The translations under genes and the position numbers were made by a program. Positions 4,112 to 53,500 of a DNA stretch of 64,000 nt are shown one piece after another. The stretch's first letter is position 1; every line of letters starts with the position of its first letter. Under the pieces are notes generated by a model. That model did no database searches and had not been told where the DNA came from. It saw nothing but the letters and a program-made list of their open reading frames with translations. The stretch is from an uncultured Thermoanaerobaculum sp. (lineage in GTDB: Bacteria; Acidobacteriota; Thermoanaerobaculia; Thermoanaerobaculales; Thermoanaerobaculaceae), in the NCBI GenBank assembly GCA_937934115.1, contig CALHAH010000005.1, positions 1 to 64,000 of the forward strand. Direction: 5' to 3'.

Positions 4112-4129
4112 GGCGCGTGTGAGGTAACG

Positions 4130-6516: not shown

Positions 6517-6535
6517 CACCTTCCATTCTAGTCCT

Positions 6536-6571: not shown

Positions 6572-6591
6572 CGCCAAGAAAAGACAAGAAA

Positions 6592-7758: not shown

Positions 7759-7767
7759 AAGCACTCC

Positions 7768-9330: not shown

Positions 9331-9339
9331 GATGCCTCC

Positions 9340-9639
9340 TTACTCGGGAGATGAAAAACTAACGTTTGGCGCGTCCTTGGCTAACCCCGCAATGGCTCCC
9401 CGCGCCACTTGAATTTTCACGTTATCCGCGACCTTCAAAGTCACCACGTCGCCTTCCACGTTGACGATGGTGCCGTAAATGCCCCCGCTGGTGATGACGC
9501 GGTCACCTTTGGTGAGGGCCGCCAGCATCTCTTGGTGTTTTTTTTGGCGCCGCCGCATGGGAACGATCATCACCAAGTAAAAAATCAAAAACACCAAAAG
9601 AAGGGGAAAGAGCTGAAGAAATGGGTTTTGCGGGTTCAT
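9340..9639 (-). CDS. yajC: Preprotein translocase accessory subunit YajC
   Basis: This 99-residue protein has one N-terminal transmembrane helix (LLLVFLIFYLVMIVPMRRR) and a small cytoplasmic domain containing the typical ITSGGIYGTIVNVEGDVVTLKVADNV pattern. YajC associates with SecDF and SecYEG. Its ATG overlaps the tgt TGA by 4 nt, so translation is probably coupled. Position between tgt and secD is the classical arrangement. Confidence 0.96.
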   Translation of the reverse strand: MNPQNPFLQLFPLLLVFLIFYLVMIVPMRRRQKKHQEMLAALTKGDRVITSGGIYGTIVNVEGDVVTLKVADNVKIQVARGAIAGLAKDAPNVSFSSPE

Positions 9640-10763: not shown

Positions 10764-10768
10764 GGCTT

Positions 10769-11458: not shown

Positions 11459-11467
11459 GACGCGGCA

Positions 11468-11496
11468 ACACTAGCAAAGCTCAGGTACGGGGTCAA
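11468..11496 (-). promoter_or_regulatory. Promoter of lolA-tgt-yajC-secDF
   Basis: On the minus strand TTGACC (11496-11491), a 17-nt spacer and TAGTGT (11473-11468) form a good sigma-70 promoter. Only 9 nt separate the -10 from the lolA ATG, so the leader would be 2-3 nt and no Shine-Dalgarno sequence fits. This is close to the leaderless pattern seen at other genes in the window. Confidence 0.6.
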
Positions 11497-11565
11497 ACGT
11501 AAAAAACCTTGCCCAAAGCCACGAACATGCCCGTAACGCAAAAGGCTCGTGTACTCACCAAAGGC

Positions 11566-32776: not shown

Positions 32777-34111
32777 GTGAACGAGACGGGAACCGTGCTC
32801 ATTTCCTCCGGAACCGTCGTGCCCATGACGCAGGAGGGCTTATTCTTTTCTGCCGACCTTTTAATCAAAAGCACCAGAATTGCCAAGATCGCCCCCAGCA
32901 TTGACCCGCCCGAAGGCTGTCGCGTTTTGGACGCCCGCGGCTGCCTGGTCCTTCCGGGCTTTGTGCAAACCCATGTTCACGTTGTGCAAAGCTTGGCCCG
33001 CAACCGCGCCGACGGCCTTACGCTTCTGGACTGGCTTTCTTTGCGCATTTGGCCTTACGAGGCTGCCCTTAGCGCAGGCGAAGTGGCGGTAGCCGCTCGC
33101 CTGGGGATTGCCGAGCTTTTGCTTTCCGGCACTACCGCCGCCTTGGATATGGGCACCGTGCACCACCACCACCAGGTGTTTGCGGCTGCCGCCGAGCTTG
33201 GCATCCGCTTTGTTTCCGGCAAGTGCCACATGGACCGCGGCGACCGGGTACCTGAGCCACTCCTGGAGGACCCTGAAAGCTCCTTGGCGGAAGCCGAGCA
33301 CTTGGCGGCCCGCTGGCACGGGGCCGCGTCAGACCGCCTGCGCTACGCAGTGGCCCCCCGGTTTGTGCTGTCCTGTTCGCCCCAGTTGCTTGTGGGCTGC
33401 GTGGAGCTGGCGCGCAGCCGTAACCTCCTGCTTCACACCCACGCCAGTGAAAACCTCCAGGAAACGGACCTGGTGCGCTCGATTACCGGTAAAGGCAACG
33501 TGGCTTACCTTGCTGACCTCGGTTTGGCAGGGCCGGACACGGTTCTTGCTCACTGTGTGCATCTGGAGGACGGCGAGTACGACCTCTTGGCGCGCCGCCA
33601 CACCGGCGTGGCCCACTGCCCCGGGGCCAATCTCAAGTTGGCTTCCGGCATTGCCGATGTGCCCAGGCTCCTGAGAGCGGGGGCACGGGTGGGTCTTGGC
33701 GCCGACGGCCCGCCTTGCAACAACCGGCTTTCCATCTTTCACGAGATGGCCCTGGCCGGAACCCTGCACAACCTACGCCACGGGCCGGGGGCCCTCTCCC
33801 CTTGGCACGTCCTGGAGCTGGCCACATGGCGGGGGGCCGAGGTCTTAGGCTGGGGCCAGGAGCTAGGCCGTCTTGCTGAGGGCTTCCTCGCCGATGTGGT
33901 GGTGCTAGCGCCGAGTTTAAGCTGGGAACCCTGGGGCGACCCCGCCAGCATGGTAGTCTTTGCTGGCGGGGTGGGAAACGTGCGGCACGTGGTGGTGAAT
34001 GGCCAAGTGGTTGTGGAGGAAGGACAGCTCCTCACCGCCGATGCCGAAACCATCACAAAAGAGGCCCGCCACGCGGCGCAATTGCTGGCTGGGAGACTCG
34101 CCTGGTCATGA
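32777..34111 (+). CDS. Amidohydrolase (AtzA/MtaD/SsnA-like deaminase)
   Basis: This 444-residue metal-dependent TIM-barrel hydrolase has the first metal pair in VQTHVHVVQSLARN, a further His in LLHTHASENLQET, the catalytic-base His in VLAHCVHLEDGE and the metal Asp in GLGADGPPCNN. These fit the mononuclear subgroup that removes amino groups from ring compounds, such as 5'-methylthioadenosine, S-adenosylhomocysteine, guanine or triazines. The substrate is not decidable by eye. Its stop overlaps the next start (ATGA). The start is GTG 32777 under a leaderless-type promoter. Confidence 0.88.
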   Translation: MNETGTVLISSGTVVPMTQEGLFFSADLLIKSTRIAKIAPSIDPPEGCRVLDARGCLVLPGFVQTHVHVVQSLARNRADGLTLLDWLSLRIWPYEAALSAGEVAVAARLGIAELLLSGTTAALDMGTVHHHHQVFAAAAELGIRFVSGKCHMDRGDRVPEPLLEDPESSLAEAEHLAARWHGAASDRLRYAVAPRFVLSCSPQLLVGCVELARSRNLLLHTHASENLQETDLVRSITGKGNVAYLADLGLAGPDTVLAHCVHLEDGEYDLLARRHTGVAHCPGANLKLASGIADVPRLLRAGARVGLGADGPPCNNRLSIFHEMALAGTLHNLRHGPGALSPWHVLELATWRGAEVLGWGQELGRLAEGFLADVVVLAPSLSWEPWGDPASMVVFAGGVGNVRHVVVNGQVVVEEGQLLTADAETITKEARHAAQLLAGRLAWS

Positions 34112-34989
34112 TCCTACGCCCCCGCTACCGTATTGAGGAGCTAGACCAGTACTTAGCCAAGCGCGATTACGGCGCCGCCTTGTCGGCCATTGCGGAGGAG
34201 CTTAAGAAACACCCGGAAAACTTCAACTTGCTTTTGCGCCAAGCAGAAATTTTGGGTATGGCGGGGGATCGCCACCACGCCATCGCGGTTTACCGCAACC
34301 TCGCCAGGCACTTTGCTAAACAAGGCCGGTACTCCATGGCCATTGCCGTCACCAACAAGATTCTGCGCCTCGATCCCACCCAAACCGAAGCCGCTGCGGA
34401 GTTGCAGGCACTGTTAGCGGCCCAGCGAGAAGAAGAGGAACGCGCCAAAAGCCGGCTCTTGCAAGCTGCTAGGACACCGGTCACACCGCCCCGCGGTACC
34501 ACAACCCAACCGCCACCCCCGGAACCCCCACCACCACCAGCGTCACCTCCTCCATCCGAAGCCGACGCCCTTCGCTTCTTTTCGGCGTTCCCGCGGCAAG
34601 CCCTTACTGAGCTTTTGGGTTCCACCTCCGTCCGCTCCTACGGCGCCGGTGCCGCCATCGTGCGCGAGGGGGAGTACGGGGACTCGTTGTTCTTAATCGT
34701 GGAAGGCAACGTATTGGTGGAAGGAACCGATCCCCGCGGAAAGAAAGTTACGCTGGCTACCCTGGGCCCCGGCGATTTCTTCGGGGAAGTGGCAGTGCTT
34801 ACCGGAAAACCACGGACCGCCACTGTAACGGCCCAAGGGCCTGTGACGCTGATCGAGATTTCCAAGGAGGTTTTGGCCGAAATTTGTGAACGGCACCCGC
34901 AGGTGTCAGCAGTGCTCGAGAGGTTCTACCAAGACCGCGCCAACGCCACCGTCAGCGTGATGCTATCCCGCTTGCGGCAAACACCATGA
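34108..34989 (+). CDS. TPR and cyclic-nucleotide-binding-domain protein
   Basis: This 293-residue protein has TPR-like helices (about 15-110), a proline-rich linker (about 125-150) and a C-terminal cNMP-binding domain. The domain shows IVREGEYGDSLFLIVEGNV and the phosphate-binding cassette GDFFGEVAVLTGKPRTATV, with the cassette Glu and Arg intact. There is no DNA-binding helix-turn-helix, so it is not a CRP-type regulator. It probably acts through protein contacts. It is coupled by ATGA overlaps to both neighbours, forming a three-gene unit with the amidohydrolase and the ligase. Confidence 0.85.
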   Translation: MILRPRYRIEELDQYLAKRDYGAALSAIAEELKKHPENFNLLLRQAEILGMAGDRHHAIAVYRNLARHFAKQGRYSMAIAVTNKILRLDPTQTEAAAELQALLAAQREEEERAKSRLLQAARTPVTPPRGTTTQPPPPEPPPPPASPPPSEADALRFFSAFPRQALTELLGSTSVRSYGAGAAIVREGEYGDSLFLIVEGNVLVEGTDPRGKKVTLATLGPGDFFGEVAVLTGKPRTATVTAQGPVTLIEISKEVLAEICERHPQVSAVLERFYQDRANATVSVMLSRLRQTP

Positions 34990-36458
34990 AGCCAAGCCCT
35001 TGCCCCTTGGTTTTTCGCTTTTTCCGCCTAGCGCAGCAGGATCCAGCCGCCCCGGCGTTTTTGGATGCCGATGGCCGCCTGCTTTCCCCGCGCGGGCTTG
35101 TAGCGCAACAGAGTGAGCTTCTGGCCGAACTGTACGGGCGTTTAAAACTCCCGCACCGACCGGTGGTGCTTTCCTTAGCCAACGGGCCAGCTCTCGTAGT
35201 TCACTTTTTGGCGCTGCGGAAGCGTGGACACGCGGTAGCCCTGGCCGACACCACAGCTCCCTACCCCGAGCTTTTACGCGTGGCGCAGGCGGTGGGCGCC
35301 GGGGCGTTGGTGGCCAACCTGGAACGGTTGGAAAACGGCCGAGAGCTTATGCCTCCGGGGGTAGGGGTGGAGCGCCAACCCACCGCGGCGGTTCCGGTTC
35401 CCAACGGCACGGCCGTTTTCAAGCTCAGCTCCGGGTCTACCGGTGAACCGCAAGCGTTTGCCGCGTCGGCTGCCCAACTTTACGCCGATGCGTCGCACAT
35501 TTTCCGCACCATGGGACTGCGCCGCAGCGACCGGACCCTCGCCGCCATTCCCCTCACCCACTCCTACGGTCTGGGCTCTTGCCTGGTGCCGCTTTTGGTG
35601 TGGGGCACCCCGCTGGTCCTGCCCTCTTGCAACCTCCCCGCGGCCCTGGCCCATACCTTGGCCGCGGCCCAGGTGGAGCATTTTCCAGCGGTTCCTGCCA
35701 TGGTGCGCGCTTTGGCCTCGTTACCCAACCTGCCCCCTTGGCCCTCCCTGCGCGTTTGTCTCACCGCTGGTGCCCCGCTGGCCACCAAGGACGCTGCAGC
35801 GTTTTGCGCCGCCACCGGCCATAAGCCCCACGTGTTTTACGGTTCTTCCGAGTGTGGGGGCATAACCTACGATCGCACCGACCTTTGTCCCCACCAGGAG
35901 GGAGCAGTGGGCACGCCTCTGGACGGCGTCCACGTGGATGTGGTGGATGAGGAAGGGCACCCTTTGCCCGTGGGAGTTGAGGGTCGCGTAAGGGTGCGTT
36001 CGCGGGCTGTGGTGCTTGGCGCAGTACCGCCTCTCTCCGACCCGAAGGTGCTCACGTCTCGCTGCTTTCTCACCGGGGATGCAGGTTTTTTTGATGAAAA
36101 CGGGGTTCTCCACCTCACCGGCCGACTCTCGGATGTGGTGAACGTAGCGGGTAAGAAGGTCCACCCCGAGGAAGTTCGTCGGGTCCTTGAAGCACTTCCG
36201 GGAGTTTTGAGCGCAGCGGTGGTAGGGGTGCCGGATCCGCACCGCGGGCAGGTGTTGGGTGCGGTGCTGGCGGTGTCACCGCAGGCGAGCCTCACTGTGC
36301 ACAAGGTCATTACCTACTGTCGCGCTCGCCTGGCTCCTTACAAGGTCCCCCGCAAAGTGGCGCTGGTGCCCGAGCTTCCCCTTACTGCCCGCGGTAAGTT
36401 GGCCAAAAGGGACCTTCTCGCGCTTTTGCGCGGTAAAAAAGCCCCCGCGGAAAGCTAG
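34986..36458 (+). CDS. AMP-forming acyl-CoA synthetase/ligase (ANL superfamily)
   Basis: This 490-residue adenylate-forming enzyme has core motifs A3 (FKLSSGSTGEPQ), A5 (FYGSSECGGI), A7 (TGDAGFFDENG), A8 (GRLSDVVNVAGKKVHPEEV) and the A10 lysine in LTARGKLAKRDL. The serine-rich A3 loop and short N-terminal domain differ from classical acetyl-CoA synthetases. It activates a carboxylic acid to an acyl-AMP and probably then to a thioester. The acid is unknown. No carrier-protein domain is attached. Confidence 0.88.
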   Translation: MKPSPCPLVFRFFRLAQQDPAAPAFLDADGRLLSPRGLVAQQSELLAELYGRLKLPHRPVVLSLANGPALVVHFLALRKRGHAVALADTTAPYPELLRVAQAVGAGALVANLERLENGRELMPPGVGVERQPTAAVPVPNGTAVFKLSSGSTGEPQAFAASAAQLYADASHIFRTMGLRRSDRTLAAIPLTHSYGLGSCLVPLLVWGTPLVLPSCNLPAALAHTLAAAQVEHFPAVPAMVRALASLPNLPPWPSLRVCLTAGAPLATKDAAAFCAATGHKPHVFYGSSECGGITYDRTDLCPHQEGAVGTPLDGVHVDVVDEEGHPLPVGVEGRVRVRSRAVVLGAVPPLSDPKVLTSRCFLTGDAGFFDENGVLHLTGRLSDVVNVAGKKVHPEEVRRVLEALPGVLSAAVVGVPDPHRGQVLGAVLAVSPQASLTVHKVITYCRARLAPYKVPRKVALVPELPLTARGKLAKRDLLALLRGKKAPAES

Positions 36459-36537: not shown

Positions 36538-36963
36538 ATGGTGGCAGGCACGGGAACCCGGCGCTTCTTGCTCCTGGCAGCAGGTGATCGGCTCGCTGCG
36601 GTAGATGCCCGCCAGGTGCGCCGCATCCTCCGCGCCCTTCCCACGGTCCCGCTTCCTGGGGCCCAGCCGGAGCTTTTGGGGTTGGCCGAGTACGGCGGTG
36701 AACCCCTCCCGGTTTTGGACCTCGCCCAGCTCATCGGCGCCAAGCCAGGCCCATCTCCCACCTTTCCGGTGACCGTGGTAGTTTGGGTGGGTCCCTCCTC
36801 ACAACCGGAGTTGGTGGGGTTGGCAGCCGACGCGGCGGTGGACTTGGTGGGAATCCCGCAAGAACACGTGGTGCCGATGGGGGAGGGCTTGGTGGCCGGG
36901 GAGGTGGCTTTACCCCAAGGCACCGCGGAAATTTTGGACCTTTCTCGCTTGACGGTCTCATGA
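36538..36963 (+). CDS. cheW: CheW-like coupling protein
   Basis: This 141-residue protein has a single CheW domain with RFLLLAAGDRLAAVDARQVRRI at the start, then LLGLAEYGGEPLPVLDLAQL, the landmark segment of CheW, and GLAADAAVDLVGIP. CheW couples the receptor to the kinase CheA in chemosensory arrays. It is the first gene of a block in which every junction overlaps. In a Wsp-type pathway it would correspond to one of WspB or WspD. Confidence 0.88.
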   Translation: MVAGTGTRRFLLLAAGDRLAAVDARQVRRILRALPTVPLPGAQPELLGLAEYGGEPLPVLDLAQLIGAKPGPSPTFPVTVVVWVGPSSQPELVGLAADAAVDLVGIPQEHVVPMGEGLVAGEVALPQGTAEILDLSRLTVS

Positions 36964-37256
36964 GCGGGGGTGCGTACCTCTTGTTCCGCCGGTTTGGATG
37001 TCTGTGGGCCCTGCCCGCAAAACACGTCACGGCCATCTTTTCCGGGCCCAAACCGGAGATTCACCTTTCCCATGCCACCGTACCTGCGGACGAGATCGTG
37101 GGGGTTTGCGCAGAGCTTCAGCGGGTTAACCCAGCGCGCACCCTCGGGGCCTTTTGGCCCTACCCTTGTCAAGGACTAGGGGTCTTTGCCAAAGAACCCA
37201 TGGTGGTCTTGCTGCCCGATGCTTTACCGCCTTTGCTTTGCAAGGGGGAGCCATGA
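36960..37256 (+). CDS. Short CheW-like protein
   Basis: This is a 98-residue protein. Its first strands (YLLFRRFGCLWALPAKHVTAIF) look like the start of a CheW domain, but the remaining 70 residues lack the GLAEYGGEPLPV-type segment and are too short for a full CheW. It is tightly coupled (ATGA at both ends) between cheW and the receptor gene, as expected for a second coupling protein. It may be a half-domain partner of CheW, a divergent CheW, or an eroded one. There is no signal or membrane segment. Confidence 0.65.
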   Translation: MSGGAYLLFRRFGCLWALPAKHVTAIFSGPKPEIHLSHATVPADEIVGVCAELQRVNPARTLGAFWPYPCQGLGVFAKEPMVVLLPDALPPLLCKGEP

Positions 37257-38887
37257 AAGAACAGGAGACGAACTGGTCAACGGTCCCGGTGTTCGGGGTG
37301 GTGCTTTCGGGCCTTTTGGGCCTTTTGGGGTTCACCGGCATTCTCGTGGGAACCCACTACGGCTTGCCCCGGTGGATCTTGGATACCTACTTTGTGGTGG
37401 CCCTCGGTATCCTTGGCCTATACGTGGGGGTAGTCCTGCAGCCGGCCCGCAGGATGAGCCGCCGTTTTGCGCGCATAGCCACGCACGCAGAAAAAGCGGA
37501 AAGAGCTTTTGACCATGTGCTGAAGCACCTCCAGGCTGGAGATCTGGTGGCAGCCCAGGAGGCCGCGCGCCAGCTGCCGCCCCAGGTGGCACCTCAGTTT
37601 TTGGCGGCAAGTCGGGCGGTGGGCGCGCTCGTGCAGCAAATCCTCGCCAGCTCTGTGGACATCGCGGTGGCCGGCCAGGAGGTCCACAACACCGCCTCCG
37701 AGTTAGCCTCCGGCTCGTCCGAACAAGCAGCAGCAGTGGTGGAAATCACCGCCACCATGGAAGAGCTGGCGCGCACCGCCGCGCAAATTGCCACCAACGC
37801 CGCTAACCAAGCGGATTTGGCAGCCCAAGCCGAAGAGGCAGGAACCATGGGGGCTGCCGCCGTAGAAGATGCGGTGCGAGGGGTCGAGGAGGTGCAAAAG
37901 CGCATCTCGGCTATAGCCACCCGCGCCGACTCCTTGGGGACCCGTTCCCGGGAAATTTACCGGGTTTTGGACCTCATCACCGAAATTGCCCAGGAAACCC
38001 ACATCTTGGCCTTGAATGCCGCCATTGAGGCCACGGCCGCCGGCGAACACGGCCGGCGGTTTTCGGTGGTGGCCGATGAGGTGCGTCGTTTGGCGGAGCG
38101 TTCCCGCGAGTCGGTGGAATCGGTGCGTACCCTCCTGGAAGAGTTTTCCGCTTCCATTCGCGCCACCGTGGTGGCTACTGAGGAGTCCAGCAAAGAGGTG
38201 GCTAAGGTCTGGGAGCGGGCGCGGGCAGCCGCAGCCAGTATCGAGCAGCTGCGCAGCGCCGTAAGCGAAACGGCCCACGCTGCCAGGGAGATTTCCCTGG
38301 CCACCCAGCAGCAGCGCACGGCCTCCGACCAGGTGGTGCTCACGCTCAAGGAGGTAAGCCAAGTGATTCAAAAAATGGCCGAAGGGCTAAAGGCTTTCTC
38401 GGCCACCGCCGAACGCCTCAACCAACTGGCCCTTTCCATCCAGCTTTTAACCCAGTCTTTCCATCTGGATTCGCCACGATCCGTCAAGCACATTGCCCAA
38501 ACCCTTGCCGATGCTTTAGGGTCGGAAGCCGGTCACTGGGAAGCCCTGGACAGCACCTTCACCCAAGCTCTCAAGCAACACCGTTTCTTGGAAACCGCTT
38601 TCCTTACCGATCCAGAAGGGAACTTGGTGGCGTTTACAGTGAACCCTGACTTACGGCTTCCCGATACTGCTATTCCCGTGGCCGTGGGTCAGAACCTCTC
38701 CGAACGCCCGTGGTTTCAAGCGGTGATGCGGGACAAGAGAACCACCCTCACGCCGGTGTACACCTCCTTGCTCACCGGTCAAAAGTGCTTCACGGTAGCG
38801 GCCCCAGTCCATGACCCGCAGGGGCGCCTGGTGGGGGTTTTGGGTCTCGACGTCAACGCCGCCTCTTGGACAAAGATCGTCGCGTGA
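37253..38887 (+). CDS. Methyl-accepting chemotaxis protein with C-terminal cytoplasmic sensor
   Basis: This 544-residue receptor has two transmembrane helices close together (about 12-33 and 43-63) joined by about 9 residues, so there is essentially no periplasmic domain. A HAMP-like linker follows, then the coiled-coil signalling domain (about 130-405). Its hairpin tip is IAQETHILALNAAIEATAAG and GRRFSVVADEVRRLAERS. The C-terminus (about 430-544) is a PAS/Cache-like domain (TDPEGNLVAFTVNPD, ERPWFQAVMRDKRTTLTPVY, GRLVGVLGLDVN). Such a domain is normally periplasmic and N-terminal; here it must be in the cytoplasm. ATG 37253 overlaps the upstream stop. Confidence 0.9.
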   Translation: MKEQETNWSTVPVFGVVLSGLLGLLGFTGILVGTHYGLPRWILDTYFVVALGILGLYVGVVLQPARRMSRRFARIATHAEKAERAFDHVLKHLQAGDLVAAQEAARQLPPQVAPQFLAASRAVGALVQQILASSVDIAVAGQEVHNTASELASGSSEQAAAVVEITATMEELARTAAQIATNAANQADLAAQAEEAGTMGAAAVEDAVRGVEEVQKRISAIATRADSLGTRSREIYRVLDLITEIAQETHILALNAAIEATAAGEHGRRFSVVADEVRRLAERSRESVESVRTLLEEFSASIRATVVATEESSKEVAKVWERARAAAASIEQLRSAVSETAHAAREISLATQQQRTASDQVVLTLKEVSQVIQKMAEGLKAFSATAERLNQLALSIQLLTQSFHLDSPRSVKHIAQTLADALGSEAGHWEALDSTFTQALKQHRFLETAFLTDPEGNLVAFTVNPDLRLPDTAIPVAVGQNLSERPWFQAVMRDKRTTLTPVYTSLLTGQKCFTVAAPVHDPQGRLVGVLGLDVNAASWTKIVA

Positions 38888-40866
38888 GCAACGAGCTTTC
38901 CGATCTCCTGCCGGTTTTTTTGGCCGAAGCTTCCGGCCGCATGGAGCGCCTGCACACGCTTCTGCCCCACCTGGAAACTGACCCCGAAAGCCGGAGGGAA
39001 GCCCAGCGGGAACTCCACACCCTTAAAGGCGCCGGGAGAATGCTCAAGCTCCCCTCCCTCGCCCAGCTTTGCCATGAACTAGAGGAGCTCGTGCAAAAAA
39101 CGCCCCCAGGGTGGCTTTTCTCCCTCCAGAAGGGTTTGGATCAACTGGCTGCCGCCCTCACCCATCTGGGAAGGGAAGGGCTGGCCACGCCTGCTCAGGA
39201 GTCAGAGCCACCCGCTTCTGCTCCTGACCACGTACGCTTAGCCAGCCGCGATTTGCACACGCTGGCGGATCGGGCGACGCGCATCCGTATCATGGCCCGT
39301 GGGGCACGGGTGTTCCACCAGCGGCTGCGCGAGCTTTCACTCCTTGCCGAGGAGGGCCTCCGGGAAGAAGATCCCAAGCAAATTTTGGCGGTGGTGGCCA
39401 CCTCCCTGCGGCGACTGGCCCTGGAGCTGGAGCTGGGCCAAAGTCGGCTGCAGCGGTTGGCAGAAACCCACCTGGATCACGCGGTGAGCTTGCAAATGCA
39501 ACCCCTCGGGCCCTTCCTGCAAAACTTGGCTCGCCACGCTCGCGAGCTGGCCCGCGACCTGGGGAAGGATGTGCAGGTGGTGTTGCGCGGCGAAGAGGTG
39601 AGGCTTGATCGGCGCATTACCAAGGAGCTGGAGGAGGCGCTCATTCATCTCGTCCGCAACGCCGTAGACCACGGGCTGGAGCCAGCCGCCGAGCGGGCAG
39701 CCGCAGGGAAACCCAGTACCGGCAACCTTACCCTCGAAGCAGACACCTTTGGGGGCAAGGTGCGCCTTGCGGTGGTGGACGACGGCCGCGGCATTGACGC
39801 CGCAAAAGTGATGGAAAAAGCTGTAGCTCGCGGCCTCACCAGCCGGGAAGAGGCCCAGGGGTTAACCCCCGAGGCTGCCTTCCGCTTCCTCTTTCTCCCC
39901 GGCTTTTCCACCCGGGAAGAGGTAAGCGCGGTTTCCGGCCGGGGCATCGGCATGGACGCCGTGGCCGCCGCCTGTTCCCGCGTGGGTGGAGAGGTGGAGC
40001 TGACGTCCACACCGGGGAGGGGCACAAGAGTGACCTTGACGCTGCCGGTAGCCAAACGGGGGGAAGAGGTCCTCATCGTCAAGGTGGGCGAGCTGAAGCT
40101 TTTGTATCCAAAAGCAGCGGTAAAGCGCTTCCACTTGCTCCCTAGTCAGCAGGTAGTGGAAAGGGGAAGCCACACCTTTGCACGCTTGGGCGACGCGCTG
40201 CGCCCGTTTATTTCCACCCACAGGCTCTTTGCCCAGCCCATCCCGCCAATCCAAGTGCTGCTTGAAGGCGAAACGGCTGGGGTAGAGGCGGCGGTAGCGG
40301 TAGACGCGGTGCTAGGAGAAGAGGAAGTGGTGGTACGCGATCAAACCCATTCCCGGGCATTTTCCTCGCGTTTCTTTTCGGGGGCAGCAGTGACCGCCTC
40401 CGGCGAGCCCTTGCCTTTGGTCTCGCCGCTCCTGCTGCGCCAGGCGCGCTTGGCTGCCGGTACTGTAGCCGCACCACCCAAACCCGCGAGAAAAAGTATC
40501 AAAGTCCTTTTGGTGGATGACTCCTTCGTTACCCGGGAGATGGAGCGGAGGCTCCTCGCCGATGCCGGGTTTGCGGTGCTGGTGGCGGGGGATGCCCAAG
40601 AAGCCCTCACCATCCTCGGCGAAAACCCTGTGGACTGCTTGATCACCGACATCGAGATGCCGGGCATGGACGGCCTCGATCTTACGCGCCACGTGCGCTC
40701 GCTGCCGCAACTGGCGCACCTTCCGGTCATCGTGGTTTCCACCCGCGACCGACCCGAGGACCGGCTTGCCGGTTTGGCTGCTGGTGCCGATGCCTACCTG
40801 GCCAAGCAGGGCCTGGACGCCACCGAGCTTGTCGCCCTGGTGCGGCGCTTGGGAGGTAAAGGCTAA
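38884..40866 (+). CDS. cheA: Hybrid chemosensory kinase CheA-receiver
   Basis: This 660-residue protein has an HPt domain (phosphorylatable His in QRELHTLKGAGRM), a short P2-less linker, a dimerisation region, an HATPase (LVRNAVDHGLEPAAER, VVDDGRGIDAAKV, GRGIGMDAV), a CheW-like domain (about 395-520) and a C-terminal receiver (VLLVDDSFVTREMERRL, phosphoacceptor in CLITDIEMPGMDG). CheA fused to a receiver is the form seen in WspE and FrzE-type systems rather than in flagellar chemotaxis. Its start is GTG 38884, overlapping the receptor stop. Confidence 0.94.
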   Translation: MSNELSDLLPVFLAEASGRMERLHTLLPHLETDPESRREAQRELHTLKGAGRMLKLPSLAQLCHELEELVQKTPPGWLFSLQKGLDQLAAALTHLGREGLATPAQESEPPASAPDHVRLASRDLHTLADRATRIRIMARGARVFHQRLRELSLLAEEGLREEDPKQILAVVATSLRRLALELELGQSRLQRLAETHLDHAVSLQMQPLGPFLQNLARHARELARDLGKDVQVVLRGEEVRLDRRITKELEEALIHLVRNAVDHGLEPAAERAAAGKPSTGNLTLEADTFGGKVRLAVVDDGRGIDAAKVMEKAVARGLTSREEAQGLTPEAAFRFLFLPGFSTREEVSAVSGRGIGMDAVAAACSRVGGEVELTSTPGRGTRVTLTLPVAKRGEEVLIVKVGELKLLYPKAAVKRFHLLPSQQVVERGSHTFARLGDALRPFISTHRLFAQPIPPIQVLLEGETAGVEAAVAVDAVLGEEEVVVRDQTHSRAFSSRFFSGAAVTASGEPLPLVSPLLLRQARLAAGTVAAPPKPARKSIKVLLVDDSFVTREMERRLLADAGFAVLVAGDAQEALTILGENPVDCLITDIEMPGMDGLDLTRHVRSLPQLAHLPVIVVSTRDRPEDRLAGLAAGADAYLAKQGLDATELVALVRRLGGKG

Positions 40867-41885
40867 TGGTGGATGTGCTTCTCGTGGATGACTCACCCAC
40901 GGTGCGGGCGGTGCTCCGTCGGCTCCTCAACCCACCTTCGGACTTGCAAGTTGTGGGCGAGGCCACCAACGGTCAAGAAGCCGTGGACTTGGTCCTCAAG
41001 CTACGGCCGCATGTGGTCCTCATGGACGTGGAAATGCCGGTGATGGACGGTTTGGAGGCCATCCAGCGGATCATGGAGTTGCGGCCCACACCGATTCTGG
41101 TGCTCACCTCTCGCGCCAACCGTGACCGCATGGCCATTGCCTTTGAAGCCGTACGGCGGGGAGCCTTGGAGGTTTTGCCTAAACCGGAGGCGCCCGGGGG
41201 GTGGGAGGAACTGGCGTGGCGCTTGCCTGAGCTACTGCGCACAGCTGCCGGGCTTCCCCCTCGCCGTCCAGTTCTCCAAAGCCCGCGCCGGGCTTCCCGG
41301 GTGACACCGCGGGTGGTGGAGTGGATCCTTTTGGGCGCTTCCACGGGCGGCCCAGGGGCGCTCCGTGCCTTCCTGGCAGCCCTGCCCTCGGGGGTGCAAG
41401 CACCCATGGCGGTGGTGCAGCACATCGCACCCGGTTTCGAGGATGGCCTTGCCCACTGGTTGGCGCGGGAAAGCGGGCGCGATGTTCAGGTGGCACGTGC
41501 CAAGGAAAAGCCACCGGCGGGAGCGGTGCGGTTGGCTCCCGGAAAAAGCCATCTACGACTGGCAGTGGACGGCAGTCTCGAGGTGGACCCCGAAACGCCC
41601 CCACGCCAGGGCCATCGTCCCTCCGTGGACGTGCTTTTTGAATCGGCTCTTTCCCTGCGGCCGGCGCACGTGGTGGCCATACTCTTTTCCGGGATGGGAA
41701 GCGACGGTGCCTATGGGCTTTTACAGCTGAAAAGGGCGGGAGCGGTGACCGCCGTGCAAGATGAGGCAAGCTCCGCCGTATTTGGCATGCCCAAACAAGC
41801 CCTGGAGCTGGGAGCTACCGAGGTGGCCCTTCCCCCAGAAGAGCTGGCCCGTTTTGTGGCGGTTACGTGCGGGGAGGAAGGATGA
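40866..41885 (+). CDS. cheB: Chemoreceptor methylesterase CheB
   Basis: This 339-residue protein has an N-terminal receiver (LLVDDSPTVRAVLRRLL, Asp in VVLMDVEMPVMDG) and a C-terminal methylesterase. The catalytic residues are visible: Ser in LLGASTGGPGALR, His in VVQHIAPGF and Asp in FSGMGSDGAYGL. It removes methyl groups from receptors and opposes CheR. ATG 40866 shares a base with the cheA stop (TAATG). In the Wsp pathway the equivalent is WspF, whose loss raises c-di-GMP. Confidence 0.95.
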   Translation: MVDVLLVDDSPTVRAVLRRLLNPPSDLQVVGEATNGQEAVDLVLKLRPHVVLMDVEMPVMDGLEAIQRIMELRPTPILVLTSRANRDRMAIAFEAVRRGALEVLPKPEAPGGWEELAWRLPELLRTAAGLPPRRPVLQSPRRASRVTPRVVEWILLGASTGGPGALRAFLAALPSGVQAPMAVVQHIAPGFEDGLAHWLARESGRDVQVARAKEKPPAGAVRLAPGKSHLRLAVDGSLEVDPETPPRQGHRPSVDVLFESALSLRPAHVVAILFSGMGSDGAYGLLQLKRAGAVTAVQDEASSAVFGMPKQALELGATEVALPPEELARFVAVTCGEEG

Positions 41886-43309
41886 CCCGCAGCCGGGTTT
41901 TGGTCATTGACGACTCCCACCTGGCTCGAGCACTGGTGGTGCGCGCCCTCACTCAGGCCGGGTTTGAGGTATCGGAAGCCGCCGATGGTGTAGAAGGTGC
42001 GGTCATGGCCTTCCGCACTTTGCCCCAGGTGGTGCTCACCGATCTGGAAATGCCCACCATGGACGGTAACCAGTTGCTCCGCTTGCTCAAGAGCGACCCA
42101 GCCACGGCGTCCATTCCGGTGATTATCCTCACCAGCCACGGGGAAGCCCCCTCTCGGTTTTGGGGTTTGGCCACCGGGGCCGATGCTTACATCACGAAAG
42201 ATGCCTCACCAGAGCAGCTGGTGGAGGCTGTGGCAAAGCTCGCCTCCCGGTCTAGCCCCGCTCCCAAGGTGGCGGTACCTCTTCCGCAAGGGCCGTTGGA
42301 CGTGCTGGCGCGGGTTGCGCGCACCCTCGACCAGGCGCTCATGAAGGCAACGCTTACCAGCTCACTTTTGGCCCAAGGCATGGGCAGTCCGGACTTGGTA
42401 ACCGCCTGCCGCCGCGTGGTGGGGCTTTTACGGGAGGTGGTGGACGGCGAGGTTTTTGCCATCGGAGTGGCGGAAGCCCACACGGTCAGCATGTACGTGA
42501 ACGCCACCTCGGACTTGCCTTTGGCACTTTTCGATGCGGTCAACAAGGCGGTTCTCCACCGGTTGCCGGTGACCCCAGGAGCTGAGGTGGAGATGACCTA
42601 TGATGGCGAGCACCAGCACGAGGACGGCCCCCGCGACCTGGGAAGCTTGCGCTTCTTCACGCTGCCCCTGCGCGACGCCGAAGGCGTTTTGGCCATTTTG
42701 CCCAAAGACACTTCCTCCTTTGTGGCCCTCTCGTTGCCGCTCATTACGGACCTGGCAAACCACCTGGCCATCGTGCTAGACAACGCCCGCTTGGCGCAGA
42801 GGCTGCGGGAGCTTTCCTCTCGCGACAGCCTCACCCGGCTTTTGAACCACCGCGCCATTTTTGAGCGATTGGCCGAAGAATTGGCGCGCGCTGCCCGGCG
42901 CGGGCAAACAGTTTCCGTAATCCTCTGCGATTTTGACCACTTCAAAGCCGTGAACGATACCCATGGACACCTGGCCGGGGATGCGGTGCTGCGGGCTGCC
43001 GCGCAACTTTTCCGACAGCTCCTGCGCGCTTCCGACGCTCTCGGCCGCTACGGCGGGGAGGAATTCCTGGTGGTTTTGCCGGAAACCGGCCTGGAGGCCG
43101 GCATCCACACCGCCGAGCGACTGCGTCACGCTTTGGAAAAACAAAGCGTTCCCTTAGCCTCCGGCGCCAAGGTAACCATTACCGCTTCCTTCGGGGTGGC
43201 CTGTGGGGCGGAAGTGGTGGGCTCTCCAACCCCTGACGCCTTGGTGGCCCTGGCCGACATGCGCCTCTACCAAGCCAAGGCTGCCGGCCGTAACTGTGTC
43301 AAGCCCTAA
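41882..43309 (+). CDS. Response regulator diguanylate cyclase (receiver-GAF-like-GGDEF)
   Basis: This 475-residue protein has an N-terminal receiver (VLVIDDSHLARALVV, phosphoacceptor in VVLTDLEMPTMDG), a middle region (about 140-300) that looks like a GAF domain, and a C-terminal GGDEF domain with an intact active site, GRYGGEEFLVVLPET. RASD stands 5 residues before GGEEF and is a proper inhibitory I-site. It should make cyclic di-GMP when phosphorylated by CheA. WspR, its closest functional parallel, lacks the middle domain. Start ATG 41882 overlaps the cheB stop. Confidence 0.93.
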   Translation: MTRSRVLVIDDSHLARALVVRALTQAGFEVSEAADGVEGAVMAFRTLPQVVLTDLEMPTMDGNQLLRLLKSDPATASIPVIILTSHGEAPSRFWGLATGADAYITKDASPEQLVEAVAKLASRSSPAPKVAVPLPQGPLDVLARVARTLDQALMKATLTSSLLAQGMGSPDLVTACRRVVGLLREVVDGEVFAIGVAEAHTVSMYVNATSDLPLALFDAVNKAVLHRLPVTPGAEVEMTYDGEHQHEDGPRDLGSLRFFTLPLRDAEGVLAILPKDTSSFVALSLPLITDLANHLAIVLDNARLAQRLRELSSRDSLTRLLNHRAIFERLAEELARAARRGQTVSVILCDFDHFKAVNDTHGHLAGDAVLRAAAQLFRQLLRASDALGRYGGEEFLVVLPETGLEAGIHTAERLRHALEKQSVPLASGAKVTITASFGVACGAEVVGSPTPDALVALADMRLYQAKAAGRNCVKP

Positions 43310-44673
43310 TGCCGGAGAAAACGCTTCCTAAGGGCCCTGTCACGCAACTGGCGCAGCTGGTGGAACACGTGAGCGGTAACGTGGTGCCGGAGAGCTTTTT
43401 CCCCTTCCTTGCGGAGGTAGCGCGCGAACGGCGTTTGGCTTGCGGTTTTCCCGATCTGGAGGCGTACGTCAAGGCTTTGGCCGCCGGCCGCCTGCCCGAG
43501 GAGTGGCGCAAGCTCCTTTCTGCCATTACCATCAAGGAGTCTTCCTTCTTCCGCACGCCCCAGCACTTCGAAGCGCTGGAAAAGCAAATCATTCCCCTTT
43601 TGCTGCCAAGCCGGCACGCAACGCGAACCTTGCGACTGTGGAGCGCCGGTTGCGCCCGCGGCGAGGAACCCGCCACTTTGGCCATGGTACTGGCCGAGCA
43701 CCCACAGCTTGCGGGCTGGAGCTGGACCATTTTGGCTACGGATGTGGACGAAGAGGCCTTAGAAGCGGCACGAAAGGGCTTCTACGCGGAAAAGGCCTTG
43801 GCTACGGTCCCCCAGGCGCTTAAGGAGCGGTACTTCACACCGCAAGGGAACGGATGGCTGTTTTCCCCGCGCCTTTTGCAACGCATCACGTATCGCCATT
43901 TGAACCTGATAGCCGAGCCGTTCCCCTCTTTTCCCGAACCCTTTGACATCGTCATGCTGCGCAACGTTCTCATTTACTTTCGGCTTGCCTCCCAACAGCG
44001 GGTGCTGGCCCACATCGCTGGTGTTCTGGCCCCCGATGGTTTTCTCTTCCTAGGACCGGCGGAAACTGTGTGGCAGGTAAGCGACCGCTTTGAGCCTGTG
44101 GATTTGGGTGGGTGCTTTGCCTACCGACCCCGGCTCGCCAGTGCCCCCACCCCGCTCCGCCTGGGGCCAATACCCCCAAAAAAACCTCCAAAAACCCTCC
44201 CTCCCGAAAAGAAACCATCACCGCCAAAGCCCAAGCCTCAGGCGGCGCAGGCAAAGGAAGTGCTGGCAGCCGACCCCTTGGGGGAAGCCGTAGCCATCCT
44301 TGCGCAAGGACGTCTTCGCGAAGCGCAGGAGGCGTTACAAAAGCTTTTGGCGGCTAACCCCGCCGACGCCCAAGCTCACGCCTTGGAAGGCTACCTCCAC
44401 GAGGTGGCTGGACGCCCCGCCGAAGCCATTGCCGCTTTCAGAGCGTGCCTTTACCTCGAACCTGACCTGTTCCAAGCCCGGCTGCTCCTGGCTCACGCCT
44501 TGCGGCGGGCCGGGGAAGCGGGCCGCGCCCAAGCGGAGTACCGTCACCTGCTCAGCACGTTGGGGGCGGGGGGTGGGCGGGAGCTGGACCGGTTGGCTGG
44601 TCTTCCGTTGCCCACCCGGGAACAAGCCGCCCGCCAGGCGCAAGCGGCCCTGGAAGGGATGAACACAGCGTAA
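43309..44673 (+). CDS. cheR: Chemoreceptor methyltransferase CheR with TPR tail
   Basis: This 454-residue protein has a CheR N-terminal helical domain, a SAM-binding methyltransferase domain (LWSAGCARGEEPATLAMVL, ILATDVDEEALEAARKG, FDIVMLRNVLIYF) and, after a proline-rich linker (about 285-320), two to three TPR repeats at about 325-445. It methylates receptor glutamates. The TPR extension matches WspC. It is the last gene of the seven-gene block, with TAATG at its start. A gap of 43 nt and a new promoter separate it from the kinase gene. Confidence 0.94.
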   Translation: MPEKTLPKGPVTQLAQLVEHVSGNVVPESFFPFLAEVARERRLACGFPDLEAYVKALAAGRLPEEWRKLLSAITIKESSFFRTPQHFEALEKQIIPLLLPSRHATRTLRLWSAGCARGEEPATLAMVLAEHPQLAGWSWTILATDVDEEALEAARKGFYAEKALATVPQALKERYFTPQGNGWLFSPRLLQRITYRHLNLIAEPFPSFPEPFDIVMLRNVLIYFRLASQQRVLAHIAGVLAPDGFLFLGPAETVWQVSDRFEPVDLGGCFAYRPRLASAPTPLRLGPIPPKKPPKTLPPEKKPSPPKPKPQAAQAKEVLAADPLGEAVAILAQGRLREAQEALQKLLAANPADAQAHALEGYLHEVAGRPAEAIAAFRACLYLEPDLFQARLLLAHALRRAGEAGRAQAEYRHLLSTLGAGGGRELDRLAGLPLPTREQAARQAQAALEGMNTA

Positions 44674-44716: not shown

Positions 44717-47233
44717 GTGACGCTCACGGCAGTAGGCCGCTACCAAATCCTGCGGGAACTGGGGCGCGGGGGGATGGGTACCGTGTACCTGGCTTTTGAC
44801 CCCGAGCTTTCCCGCCACGTGGCCATTAAAGGCTTGGGCACAGGCCAGGCGACGCCCGAGAAGCGAGAGCGGCTACGCCGGGAAGCACGAGCCGCGGCGG
44901 CCCTCACCCACCCCAACATCGCGCAAATTTACGACGTCATCACGCAGCAAGATCAGGACTTCGTGGTCATGGAGTGGGTGGAGGGGCAAACCCTCGCTGA
45001 CCTCCTGGCCTCCGGACCCTTGTCCCCGGGAGAAGTAGCGCGCATTGGTGCACAAATAGCCCGGGCTCTTGCCTTTGCCCACCGCCGGGGCATCATCCAC
45101 CGCGACGTCAAGTGCGAAAACGTCATGATCACCCCAGAAGGCACCGCCAAGGTGCTGGACTTTGGCCTGGCGCAAATTCAGGGGTTACCGCCAGACCAGA
45201 GGCTGACCCAGGAAGGCTTGGTGGTAGGCACATCCCGTGCCATGTCCCCGGAACAAGCCATGGGGAAGCCCTTGGACCACCGCTCGGATATCTTTTCCTT
45301 GGGCTCCCTTCTGTACGAGGCCGCCACCGGCCAGCCGGCTTTCGCGGGAGAAACGGTTTTAGAAACCTTGCACAAGGTGGCCCGCGCCGAGTACGTGCCC
45401 CTGGAGCACGCAGCCCCCCGCCTTCCCCAAGAGCTGGCAGCGGTCATCCAGCGCTGCCTGGAGCGCGATCCCCAGCGACGTTTCCAGGATGCTTCCGAAA
45501 TTGCCAACCTCCTCGCCGGTGTTTCGCAAACCCTGGGCACCGCGTACCTCCCACCTGTCCCCCGAGCCACGCTTGTGGTCCAAAAGCTTAACCGTCACCT
45601 TCCGTACGTGGCCGCGGCCGTGATGATCCTTTCTGCGGTGGCAGCCATTTCTCTCCTCCGCGGCTGGTTGGGGGCCCCCAAACCGGTAACCGTCGCCGTC
45701 TTACCTGTCAGCGGTGCGCTTGCCACCGAGACGCCGTTGGTTTCTACGGCCGTGGCCGACGCTGTGGCCGGGTTTCTCGCCAACCTGCAAGGCCTCCACG
45801 TGGTGGCCGGACGCGAGGTGCGCTCGGTGTTACGGGAAGGCATGGGTGTGCGGGAAGCGGCCCGCGCCTTAGGCGTACAGGAGCTGGTGGAGGCGGTCAT
45901 CGCGCCAGGGACCGAGGCGAGCACGGTGCGAGTGCAGCTTTCGCGACTGGATGGATCCACGGGGAGAATCCTTTGGTCGCAAACCCTCGAAGCGGTTTCT
46001 GCAGACCCTCTCCCCCTCCAAGAACGCATTACCACGGCGCTCCAAGACGCTTTCCGCCAGTTCCGCGCCCGCCGGCGCCCCAAAACGCCGCCCCCAGAGG
46101 CACTGGAAGCGTACCTGGAGGTAAAAAAGCGCTTGGACGCTGGCACACCTTCCCGCGGCTATGGGGAGGAGCTGGCGCTTTTGGAGAAGGCAGAAGCGGC
46201 GGCGCCAGATTTCGTAGACGCTCTCATCACGCACGCCTCCATTGAGCGCTTCTTGGGCGGCAACCTCAACGATCCCAAGAGGTTCGCAAAGGCAGAGGAG
46301 CTGTTGCGGCGCGCCAGTGAAGCGGACGCGGAGCACCCGGAAATCCCTTTGCGCCGCGCGCAACTGGCGCAAAGTCGCGGACACGCAGAAGAAGCCGTGC
46401 AGATCCTGCGCCAGCTTACCCGTGTGCGCCCTGGCGACCCCACGGCCTGGCGAACCTTAGGCTCGGCTTTGGCCCAGCTCCAACGGCAGGAGGAAAGCGA
46501 AAAGGCCTTTGCCCGGGCATTGAGTTTGCAGCCAAACATCGTTACCTGGGACCAGCTCTCCTCGGCCCGTGCTGACTGGGGGGACTTGGCCGGGGCTCGC
46601 CAAGCGGCGCAAGAAATCCTCAAACGCGCACCCAACCACCCGTTGGGGTTATTCCGTTTGGGGTATGTGGCCGCTTTGGAAGGCGACTTCGCCCTTTGCG
46701 AAAAGCTTTTTTCCCAGCTTTACCCGCAAACCAACTTGCTTTCAGACCTCTACAACTGGGGCACCTGCACCTTTTACCAGGGCAACGTGCAGCAGGCTTT
46801 GCAAATTTACATGCAAGCACTTGCCCGCGCCCCCGATGATCACCGCAGCCACCTCAATGTGGCAGACAGCCACTTCTGGCTGGGTAACCATCAGGAAGCG
46901 CGGGCCCACTACCAAAAGGCCCTAGAGCTTCTGGAAGCTAACCCCCACCCCCGCCGTTATTGGGCAGACAAAGCCCACATCCTCGCCCACCTAGGAAGGT
47001 TCGAAGAAGCCGTCTGGGCCGCGCAAAAAAACGTTTCCGAACGCTCCAACCGCAACTGGAACCTGTTTGTGGCTGCTGAAGTGGCAGCTTTGGCAGGAGA
47101 CAAAACCTCCATGCTGGCGTACAGCCGCAAAGCCTTGGAGCTGGGCGCTCCTAAACAGTGGTTCTCTGGCCCAGAATTTGCCCCCTACCGGCAGTTGCCG
47201 GAGTTTCGCGCGCTTTTTGCAACACCGCGCTAA
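44717..47233 (+). CDS. Membrane Ser/Thr protein kinase with TolB/FlgO-like and TPR domains
   Basis: This 838-residue protein has an N-terminal Hanks-type kinase with all key motifs ([13 protein letters not shown] lysine, [26 protein letters not shown]). One transmembrane helix follows at about 295-318. Next is an extracytoplasmic FlgO/adenylate-cyclase-associated-type domain ([27 protein letters not shown]) and then about 8 TPR repeats (about 510-830). This layout is abundant in Acidobacteriota and relatives. Targets are unknown. Its TAA stop overlaps that of the convergent gene. Start GTG 44717. Confidence 0.92.
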
Positions 47234-50286: not shown

Positions 50287-50504
50287 AAGCCCTTTGGATT
50301 GACGCCAACTTTTTGTTTCGCTTCCTTACGGGCACAGCGCCGGAATGTACCGCTCGCGCTCCCAGGTTGTTGCAAAAAGCTGAGGGCGGCAAAGTGGTCC
50401 GGCACGTGTCACCTGTGGTGGCCGCGTTGGTGTGGGTCCTCTGTGGCGTTTATACGCTTTTCAGGGCCGAACACGAGGAACGGTTACGTACTGGTATAAT
50501 TTGA
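50283..50504 (+). pseudogene. Truncated VapC-like PIN-domain toxin
   Basis: These 73 codons match the first half of a VapC toxin. The catalytic Asp is in MKALWIDANFLFRFLTG, followed by RAPRLLQKAEGGKVVRHVSP and a VVAALVWVLCGVY helix with the expected Glu changed to Ala. The C-terminal half, which holds the other acidic residues of the active site, is absent. The 3' end runs into the promoter of the 2-oxoglutarate dehydrogenase gene. It cannot be an active nuclease. Confidence 0.7.
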
Positions 50505-50536
50505 GTCTCGGTACGAAAGTACCGGAGGAGTTGCCT
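50492..50536 (+). promoter_or_regulatory. Promoter and leader of the 2-oxoglutarate dehydrogenase gene
   Basis: A consensus extended -10, TGGTATAAT (50492-50500), overlaps the end of the toxin remnant. The leader of about 30 nt contains a small tetraloop hairpin GGTAC-GAAA-GTACC (50510-50523) followed by a GGAGGAG ribosome-binding site and GTG 50537. Confidence 0.65.
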
Positions 50537-53500
50537 GTGCCCGATCAGTCCACTGCCTTCGGTCCCAACGTTTGGCTTATTGACGAAATGTACCGCGAGT
50601 ACCTGGCTCACCCGGAAGCCGTAAGCGATTCCTGGCGGGAGTTTTTCTCCGACTACCGCCCGCAAGGCCTTCGCAGCCCGCAGGTGGTCGCCCCTCCCCC
50701 AGAAACCAAGCCCGCCGTAGGAGGCGTACCCGCGGGAGCCGAGCCCATCGTGGGGGGGCTTGCGCGTCTTGTGGAAAACATGGAGCAGAGCCTCTCTCTC
50801 CCCACGGCTACGTCTTTCCGCACGGTGCCCATCAAGCTCTTGGAGGAAAACCGCGAGCTCATCAACGAGTACTTAGCCCGCAAACTGGCGGGAAAGGTGA
50901 GTTTTACCCACATCTTGGCCTTTGCGGCGGTGAAGGCCTTAAAACACGTGCCGGCCTTGCGCACCACCTTTGCCGTGTACGACGGCAAGCCGTACCGGGT
51001 GGTACCCGAGCACGTCAACCTCGGTATTGCCGTGGATGTGCAGCGGCGAGACGGCAGCCGCACCCTCTTGGTTCCCAACATCAAAGCCGCAGAGACCATG
51101 GATTTCCCCACGTTCTTTGCCGCCTACAACGAAGTCCTGCGCAAGGTGCGCAGCAACCAACTGGCACCGGAGGACTTCGCCGGTACCACCATGAGCCTTA
51201 CCAACCCGGGGATGTTGGGAACCAGCCAAAGTCTCGCGCGCCTCATGCCTGGGCAAAGCTTCATCTTAGCTACCGGCAGCATCGACTGGCCGCCGGAGTT
51301 TCAAAACGCCGACCCCCGCACCTTGGCGCAACTGGGGGTAAGCAAGGTCATGACCTTGGCCTGCACCTACGACCACCGGGTCATCCAGGGGGCGGAAAGC
51401 GGCAGCTACCTGGCGGTGATTGCCGGGCTTTTAGGCGGCGAGCATGGTTTTTACGAGGAAATCTTCGCTTCCTTGGAAATCCCCTACGAGCCCTTGCGCC
51501 TGGTGCGGGATGCCAACCCTTACCTGGTGGCCCGCGACAACCTCATTGAAAAGGAAGCAGCGGTCTTGCAGCTTATCCACACCTACCGCGTGCGTGGGCA
51601 CCTCATTGCTGCCATTAACCCCCTTTCCTCCGAGCCCCGCACCCACGTGGAGTTGGAGCTCACCCGCCACGGGCTTTCCATTTGGGACTTGGACCGCGAG
51701 TTTTACACCGGGGGGCTGGGCGGTAAACCCCGCACCACCTTGCGCGAGGCGCTGCGCTTGCTGCGCGGGGCCTACTGCCACACCGTAGGGGTGGAGTACA
51801 TGCACATCCAGGACCCGGAGCAGCGGACGTGGATTGCCCAAAGGGTGGAGCAGGATCCACCTCCGGAGCTACCCCTTGCCACAAAGAAACGCATCCTGCA
51901 AAAGCTCAACGAAGCGGAGGCCTTCGAGCGCTTTTTGCACACCAAGTACATCGGCCATAAGCGTTTTTCCCTAGAAGGCGGCGAGGTACTCATCCCCATG
52001 CTCGACCACCTCCTCTCTCAGGCCGCCGATTTGGGCGTGGAGGAGGTGGTGATGGGCATGGCCCACCGCGGGCGCCTCAACGTGTTGGCCAACATTTTAG
52101 GCATGGGCTACGGCAAGATCTTCCGCCACTTCGAGGGCGACTTAGACCCCAACTCCCGTGAAGGCACCGGGGATGTGAAGTACCATTTGGGGGCCAAAGG
52201 GACGTACCTCTCCCCTTCCGGCAAAAAAGTGGCGGTGGAGTTGGCCTCCAACCCTTCCCACCTGGAAGCGGTGGACCCGGTGGTGGAGGGCATGGCCCGG
52301 GCCAAGCAAGATGAGCGGGGGGATGTGGAACGCACCAAGGTCATGCCAGTGCTCATCCACGGTGACGCGGCCTTTGCCGGACAGGGGGTGGTGGCGGAAA
52401 CCTTGAACATGAGCGCGCTGTCCGGCTTTAGAACCGGTGGCACCGTGCACATCGTAGTGAACAACGGTATTGGCTTCACCACCGCCCCTGCTGATGCTCG
52501 CTCCTCGGTGTACGCCACCGATGTGGCGCGCATGGTGCAGGCCCCCATCTTTCACGTCAACGGTGAAGACCCGGAAGCCTGCGTGCGCGTCATCGCCCTG
52601 GCCGTGGCCTTCCGCATGGCCTTTCACAAGGACGTGGTGGTGGATTTGGTGTGCTACCGGCGGTGGGGGCACAACGAAGCCGACGAGCCGGCGTTTACGC
52701 AGCCCCTTATGTACGCCAAGATCCGTGACAAGCGCTCGGTGCGCAAGCTTTACACCGAGCTTTTGGTTAACCGTGGCGATATCACCTTGCAGGAAGCGGA
52801 GCAAGCGCTGGAGCAGTTCCAAAGGCTCTTAGAACGGGCCTTTGAGGAAACCAAAGAATCAGCTCCCCCAACGGTGGAGGTGGTCTTCCGCGAGCCGGCA
52901 CCCCCCGAACCCGCCCCCGCTGCACCTCCGGTGCGTCGCGAAGCCCTGCAGCAGGTAGCCGCATGCCTTGGCACGGTCCCCGAGGGTTTCCGCGTGCATC
53001 CCAAGCTTTCCCGGCTCTTGGCCTACCGTGCCCGCTGCCTGGAACAAGGCGTGGACTGGGGTGCAGCTGAGCTTTTGGCCTTTGGGAGCTTGCTTTTGGA
53101 GGGTATTCCCGTGCGCCTTTCAGGCCAGGATTCCCGGCGGGGCACCTTTTCCCACCGGCACGCGGTCCTGGTGGACCAAGAAACCGGCCAAGCCTACGTC
53201 AACCTTGAACACTTGCCCGAAAGCCGCGCCCAGTTTTTGATTTACGACTCGCTGCTGTCCGAATACGCGGTGATGGCGTACGAATACGGCTACTCGGTGG
53301 CTCGCCCTCACGCTCTGGTCCTGTGGGAAGCGCAGTTCGGGGATTTTGCCAACGGCGCGCAAATCGTCATTGACCAGTTCGTGACTTCGGCCCACGAGAA
53401 GTGGGACCAGCACGCCCGGCTAACGCTGCTCTTGCCGCACGGCTACGAAGGGCAAGGACCCGAGCACTCCTCCGCCCGCATGGAGCGCTTCTTGCAGCTG

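Follow-up and report, generated by a model that had tools for sequence, protein, structure and literature searches.

A probable ACF-class chemosensory operon with a diguanylate cyclase output, Wsp-like in outline, in a non-flagellated Thermoanaerobaculum

Seven consecutive genes at positions 36538-44673 (+ strand) of a 64,000-nucleotide stretch of Thermoanaerobaculum DNA (contig CALHAH010000005.1, hereafter the window) encode a chemosensory system together with a diguanylate cyclase, and raise the question of whether such an operon in an acidobacterium belongs to Wsp, a biofilm pathway of Pseudomonas. The original prediction had called it a Wsp-type operon outside Pseudomonas. We find that it is Wsp-like in outline, with a chemosensory array leading to cyclic di-GMP (c-di-GMP), but is not to be filed as Wsp. 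It probably encodes a stand-alone pathway of the alternative cellular function (ACF) class in which an intracellular signal is converted to c-di-GMP, with type IV pili as a possible target. It shows that chemosensory control of c-di-GMP has diversified outside Wsp as well, here in a lineage that lacks flagella.

The predicted run of seven overlapping genes on one strand was confirmed by coordinates, Pfam matches and intact residues. The first gene encodes a CheW coupling protein of 141 aa (36538..36963; Pfam CheW PF01584, E 9e-17), followed by a short CheW-like protein of 98 aa, CheWs (36960..37256), a receptor of the methyl-accepting chemotaxis protein (MCP) type and class 40H (37253..38887; MCPsignal E 1e-31), a hybrid kinase of 666 aa with a TTG start and Hpt, HATPase, weak CheW and receiver (REC) domains in Pfam (CheA-REC, 38866..40866), a CheB methylesterase with a receiver, from Pfam (40866..41885), a REC-GAF-like-GGDEF diguanylate cyclase that is the output response regulator, from Pfam and its predicted fold (41882..43309), and a CheR methyltransferase with C-terminal tetratricopeptide repeats (TPRs) (43309..44673; Pfam CheR E 1e-52). 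For the cyclase, a start at ATG 41882 was preferred over GTG 41867. Pfam matched six of the seven proteins, and none of the seven reached the cut-off of an NCBIfam equivalog. CheWs, which has no Pfam match, is conserved in the Thermoanaerobaculaceae. In hhalign its family profile matches the first half of CheW (probability 90%); the protein looks like a single CheW half that carries an insert. Hpt H51 and N-box N265 of CheA are intact, as is the catalytic triad S157/H186/D280 of CheB. Neighbouring genes overlap by 1 to about 22 nt, with ATGA-type overlaps at 36960 and 37253, 22 nt at 38866 and 1-4 nt at 40866, 41882 and 43309; because each gene begins within or at the stop of the preceding one, translational coupling is suggested. 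A promoter scan found none, and terminators appeared at chance level only.

The operon is the only chemosensory system of its host, a 2.42-Mb genome of the Acidobacteriota. Genome-wide family searches found one MCP, one CheB and one CheR, all in the operon, and the single stand-alone CheW is the operon's own (the CheW domain of CheA aside). Furthermore, FlhA was found in none of the 37 genomes of the order (the host and 36 relatives), with positive controls matched, and the operon has no stand-alone receiver, in agreement with the prediction that flagellar genes and a CheY-only output are absent. A 40H receptor and a CheR with TPRs are described marks of ACF systems (PMC10746217, PMC3447774). 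The ACF assignment therefore comes mainly from these two features, the non-CheY output and the absence of flagellar FlhA, which also separates the host from the flagellar (F) class; it does not come from the tree.

We also considered a type IV pilus motility (Tfp, Chp-like) system to which the cyclase would be an accessory. The lack of flagella fits such a system, as do the pilus genes that the original prediction had correctly placed at either end of the window. Those at the 5' end encode PilM (2810-3859) and an AMIN-domain PilQ-like protein (1-1128); those at the 3' end (58.3-64 kb) are pilin-like genes followed by a PilY1-like open reading frame, both assigned by eye, the latter not being recognised by Pfam. 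However, the operon kinase has a single Hpt domain whereas the ChpA kinase of Tfp systems has several, there is no CheY-type receiver like PilG or PilH, and the operon carries both CheR-TPR and a full CheB. In a quick CheA tree the Tfp reference CheAs, though on long branches, did not group with the operon CheA. We regard a pilus motility system as quite unlikely.

Against E. coli Tar/Tap, each arm of the receptor's signalling hairpin is longer by exactly 14 residues; against five WspA proteins there is no insert. This symmetric 14+14 residue insert places it in class 40H, which is tied to ACF systems (PMC10746217). Two transmembrane (TM) helices (TM1, aa ~12-35; TM2, aa ~43-65) lie ~8 residues apart and are followed by a positively charged stretch, a degenerate HAMP-like stretch, the signalling hairpin and a C-terminal Cache domain (dCache_1, aa ~391-536; 38411..38884, E 8e-17). 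Such a short loop leaves no periplasmic sensor, and the Cache domain is presumably cytosolic, judging from this topology. Since 78% of Cache domains are confidently extracellular (PMC4822843), a Cache domain on the cytosolic side is unusual, but the arrangement has precedent in an MCP with a C-terminal Cache drawn for Halomonas (PMC5907407, legend of Fig. 3). The dCache_1 domain is present in all 21 receptor orthologues. Its AlphaFold model (pLDDT 87) retrieved the Cache domains of KinD, PctA/B/C and CtaA in Foldseek (E 1e-8 to 1e-6), and alignment to PctA matched R126, W128, Y144 and D173 to receptor residues R485, W487, Y503 and D533, all invariant in the 21 receptors, and Y129 to F488. In PctA, R126 is a carboxylate contact and D173 a key residue of the amino-acid motif (PMC10104139). 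R485, W487, F488, Y503 and D533 are thus predicted to line a pocket of the amino-acid type. In some lineages the receptor is duplicated, as in loci L089, L091, L108 and L155, where cheW/cheWs is flanked by two Cache-type receptors.

How close, then, is this operon to Wsp? A Wsp pathway orthologous to that of Pseudomonas, moved to the Acidobacteriota, rearranged and still surface-sensing, would account for the shared protein families of WspABCDEFR in Pseudomonas and Burkholderiales (40H receptor, hybrid CheA-REC, CheB, an output that begins with REC and ends with GGDEF, CheR-TPR and two CheW-type genes) and for a CheA-CheB-cyclase block that is collinear with wspE-F-R. However, wspA-B-C-D-E-F synteny is the Wsp criterion (PMC8552884), and the order here is CheW-CheWs-MCP-CheA-CheB-cyclase-CheR, a difference from Pseudomonas that the original prediction had already seen. 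WspA has a periplasmic sensor between its two TM helices whereas the receptor here has the C-terminal Cache domain instead, and Wsp has two full-length CheW proteins whereas the second one here, at 98 aa, is half-like. In addition, the cyclase carries a GAF-like domain and a GGDEF domain that is not of the WspR type.

The core genes also form a separate clade. In a concatenated CheA-CheB-CheR-MCP tree (44 rows, 976 columns), the Thermoanaerobaculaceae operons (100/100), Wsp together with the acidobacterial locus L060 (100/100), actinobacterial operons (100/100) and a flagellar set (100/98) were distinct groups whose mutual relations are poorly resolved. Wsp itself was monophyletic (100/99) without the Thermoanaerobaculaceae operon. 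Placing the operon clade with Wsp but apart from L060 was rejected in an approximately unbiased (AU) test (p-AU 7.4e-7), whereas a position as sister to Wsp plus L060 was not rejected (p 0.25). That sister placement had appeared in the quick CheA tree (92 SH-aLRT); it vanished in the careful CheA tree and in the concatenated tree, and we dropped it. Taking synteny, receptor, second CheW, cyclase and phylogeny together, we consider it highly unlikely that the operon is Wsp itself; what holds of the original prediction is a chemosensory-to-c-di-GMP operon of the ACF kind. The trees keep the operon clade apart from the flagellar set, but forcing the two together was not rejected (p 0.21 for the concatenated data, 0.069 for CheA alone).

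L060 (genome G054, contig C9, 6724-16118, - strand), from a relative of the host at class level, is a Wsp-type cluster sister to Wsp (100/100). It encodes an MCP with a periplasmic domain, CheW, CheR-TPR, CheA-REC and CheB, then a response regulator in which a class III adenylate/guanylate cyclase domain replaces GGDEF (Pfam PF00211, E 1.5e-24).

The emphasis on an occurrence outside Pseudomonas was accurate but is less surprising than it seemed, as canonical wsp operons had already been described from betaproteobacteria (PMC8552884) and from Zetaproteobacteria (PMC5513912). We saw the canonical order in loci L071-L074 and L077. Two of these lie on alphaproteobacterial plasmids with wspABCDEFR in order (L074, Mesorhizobium ciceri pMESCI01, 3145-11545; L077, Novosphingobium humi, 3163-11535), unlike the report of Wsp only in beta- and gammaproteobacteria (PMC8552884).

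Wsp is one of two described precedents beside which the operon stands as a further variant; the other is 'chemosensory cluster 2' of Halomonas titanicae (PMC5907407). That ACF pathway likewise has a 40H receptor, CheA-REC, CheR-TPR, a diguanylate cyclase whose architecture is its own, and a short, aberrant CheW (CheW3). It differs in its order (MCP-CheB-CheR-CheA-CheY-cyclase-CheW2-CheW3), its periplasmic sensor, an extra CheY and an Hpt-REC-REC-GGDEF cyclase, whereas the operon here has no CheY and a REC-GAF-GGDEF protein. A plasmid copy of cluster 2 (L079) was weakly sister to the Thermoanaerobaculaceae set (81/93). What sets the new variant apart is that it is the sole array of a non-flagellated acidobacterium, with a receptor that presumably senses the cytosol.

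A matching gene order came from five metagenome-assembled contigs of Thermoleophilia/Actinomycetes (L113, L114, L115, L117 and L147, of which L113 and L147 end at contig ends). They share the order CheW-MCP-CheA(REC)-CheB-REC/GAF/GGDEF-CheR(TPR) and a homologous GAF-like middle domain (39-58 bits). However, no CheWs was seen in them, and the L114 receptor (L114:6296-7984) has a periplasmic Mcp40H-20 sensor with a CQGCH motif instead of the Cache domain. This motif (CxxCH, c-type haem) suggests redox or gas sensing by that receptor. A common origin of the arrangement is an attractive idea, but a sister relation of the core genes, suggested by order and GAF domain, is disfavoured, being mildly rejected (p 0.023). 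We therefore propose only tentatively a separate and ancient class of operon (CheW-[CheWs]-MCP-CheA-CheB-REC/GAF/GGDEF-CheR) common to Acidobacteriota and Actinomycetota, which in the Thermoanaerobaculaceae might serve, as the sole array with a single receptor reading the cytosol, as a switch from metabolic state to c-di-GMP.

The output enzyme looks intact. Its receiver residues D54/T84/K106 are intact, as are the GGEEF motif (391-395) and the I-site R382xxD385, and GG(D/E)EF, the metal/substrate residues and the RxxD I-site are kept across 12 orthologues, consistent with an active cyclase. The extra middle domain of the original prediction (42236..42802) is GAF-like: its AlphaFold model has a pLDDT of 90, the nearest PDB folds are GAF-type though weak (best E 2.6e-3), and GAF_3 matches some orthologues. 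In a GGDEF tree, which is short (176 columns) and thus moderate evidence, the operon cyclases (15 rows, 93/81) joined a PDZ-GAF-GGDEF protein that the host genome also encodes (90/94), and WspR proteins formed a separate clade (96/97). The output enzyme does not, then, look like a WspR orthologue. A search for cyclase relatives on plasmids returned generic GGDEF proteins.

We found no relevant paper on Thermoanaerobaculum chemotaxis in the literature, and surveyed the operon in relatives as the original prediction had suggested. The nearest named loci came from Thermoanaerobaculum and other Thermoanaerobaculaceae. An orthologous CheA is present in 12 of 17 family genomes, among them genomes of the same genus, and in most of the sister family. 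Within the family the cyclase follows the kinase strictly (12/12 genomes with CheA, 0/5 without), and all 12 genomes with the kinase carry the full operon set. Conservation extends to the neighbourhood, amidohydrolase - TPR/cNMP - acyl-AMP ligase - che operon - Ser/Thr kinase-TPR.

Several observations weigh against the favoured reading. The sister family retains the core CheW-MCP(Cache)-CheA, but its set is eroded and mostly lacks the cyclase, so that there the core has to act through a different output. It is also conceivable that the cyclase is controlled mainly by its own GAF domain, PctA residues Y121 and D146 are not conserved in the receptor Cache, so the type of ligand remains a guess, and the link between operon and pili is one of co-occurrence. 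The first two of these points fit an alternative that makes the cyclase a passenger: the core would work through the CheA receiver, and c-di-GMP output would depend on the GAF domain or on other kinases. Indeed, six sister-family loci (L042, L044, L046, L048, L050 and L052) have CheW-receptor(Cache)-CheA without adjacent CheB, cyclase or CheR. However, the complete co-occurrence of cyclase and CheA in the family, the invariant receiver residues and the overlapping genes speak against a passenger, which we judge unlikely, if worth keeping in view. The single sister-family genome with a cyclase, G023, also has a weak-scoring CheWs-like reading frame. Its cyclase branches outside the family cyclases in the GGDEF tree, consistent with several losses of an ancestral cyclase; acquisition by transfer is possible. 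For the role of the core array, relatives without cyclase, CheB or CheR are a natural point of comparison. Several of the six loci also encode, ahead of CheW, a conserved membrane protein that carries an FQRxTGPSHP-like motif.

We continue to favour the stand-alone ACF pathway. Gene content, intact residues, single-system status, 40H class, conservation and predicted domain folds were obtained directly; from the Cache topology and ligand to the sign of the response, phosphotransfer and output phenotype, we infer the following scheme. A membrane-anchored 40H receptor dimer would hold both its signalling hairpin and its Cache domain in the cytosol. Ligand at the Cache domain, at best guess an amino acid or another small carboxylate or amine, would make the CheA-REC kinase, itself held by CheW and CheWs, more or less active. 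CheA would phosphorylate the receiver of the REC-GAF-GGDEF protein, leading to dimerisation and c-di-GMP synthesis, with product inhibition at the I-site and a further input through the GAF domain. The CheA receiver may serve as a phosphate sink or modulator, with adaptation presumably provided by CheB and CheR-TPR. The genome encodes nine GGDEF, one EAL, two PilZ and three MshEN domains, and c-di-GMP most likely would act on type IV pili or attachment through MshEN-domain ATPases and PilZ proteins. A role in surface attachment had been proposed originally; surface sensing by analogy with Wsp is weakened because a WspA-type periplasmic sensor is absent. With one receptor and one adjacent output, there are few parts to confuse an experiment.

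Upstream of the operon, the amidohydrolase, TPR-cNMP-binding and acyl-AMP ligase genes (32777..36458, +), assigned by Pfam and locus comparison, overlap one another and end 79 bp before cheW; they are possibly co-transcribed with the che genes. Since the trio precedes the operon across the family, a cAMP or lipid link is possible. The conserved Ser/Thr kinase-TPR gene, assigned in the same way, lies 43 bp downstream (44717..47233, +). Elsewhere in the same genome, a second c-di-GMP locus (L171; G000:C35 70000-80500) encodes a PilZ protein and GAF-GGDEF, REC-Ser/Thr kinase and REC-HD-GYP-like proteins. The window also encodes, at 50432-54076, a 1214-aa protein that by eye appears to be a fusion of 2-oxoacid dehydrogenase E2 acyltransferase and E1 (Kgd-like). 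Finally, among the records compared, one from Acinetobacter baumannii (L162, NZ_CP064203.1; 3.97 Mb) is filed as a plasmid but is apparently a chromosome.

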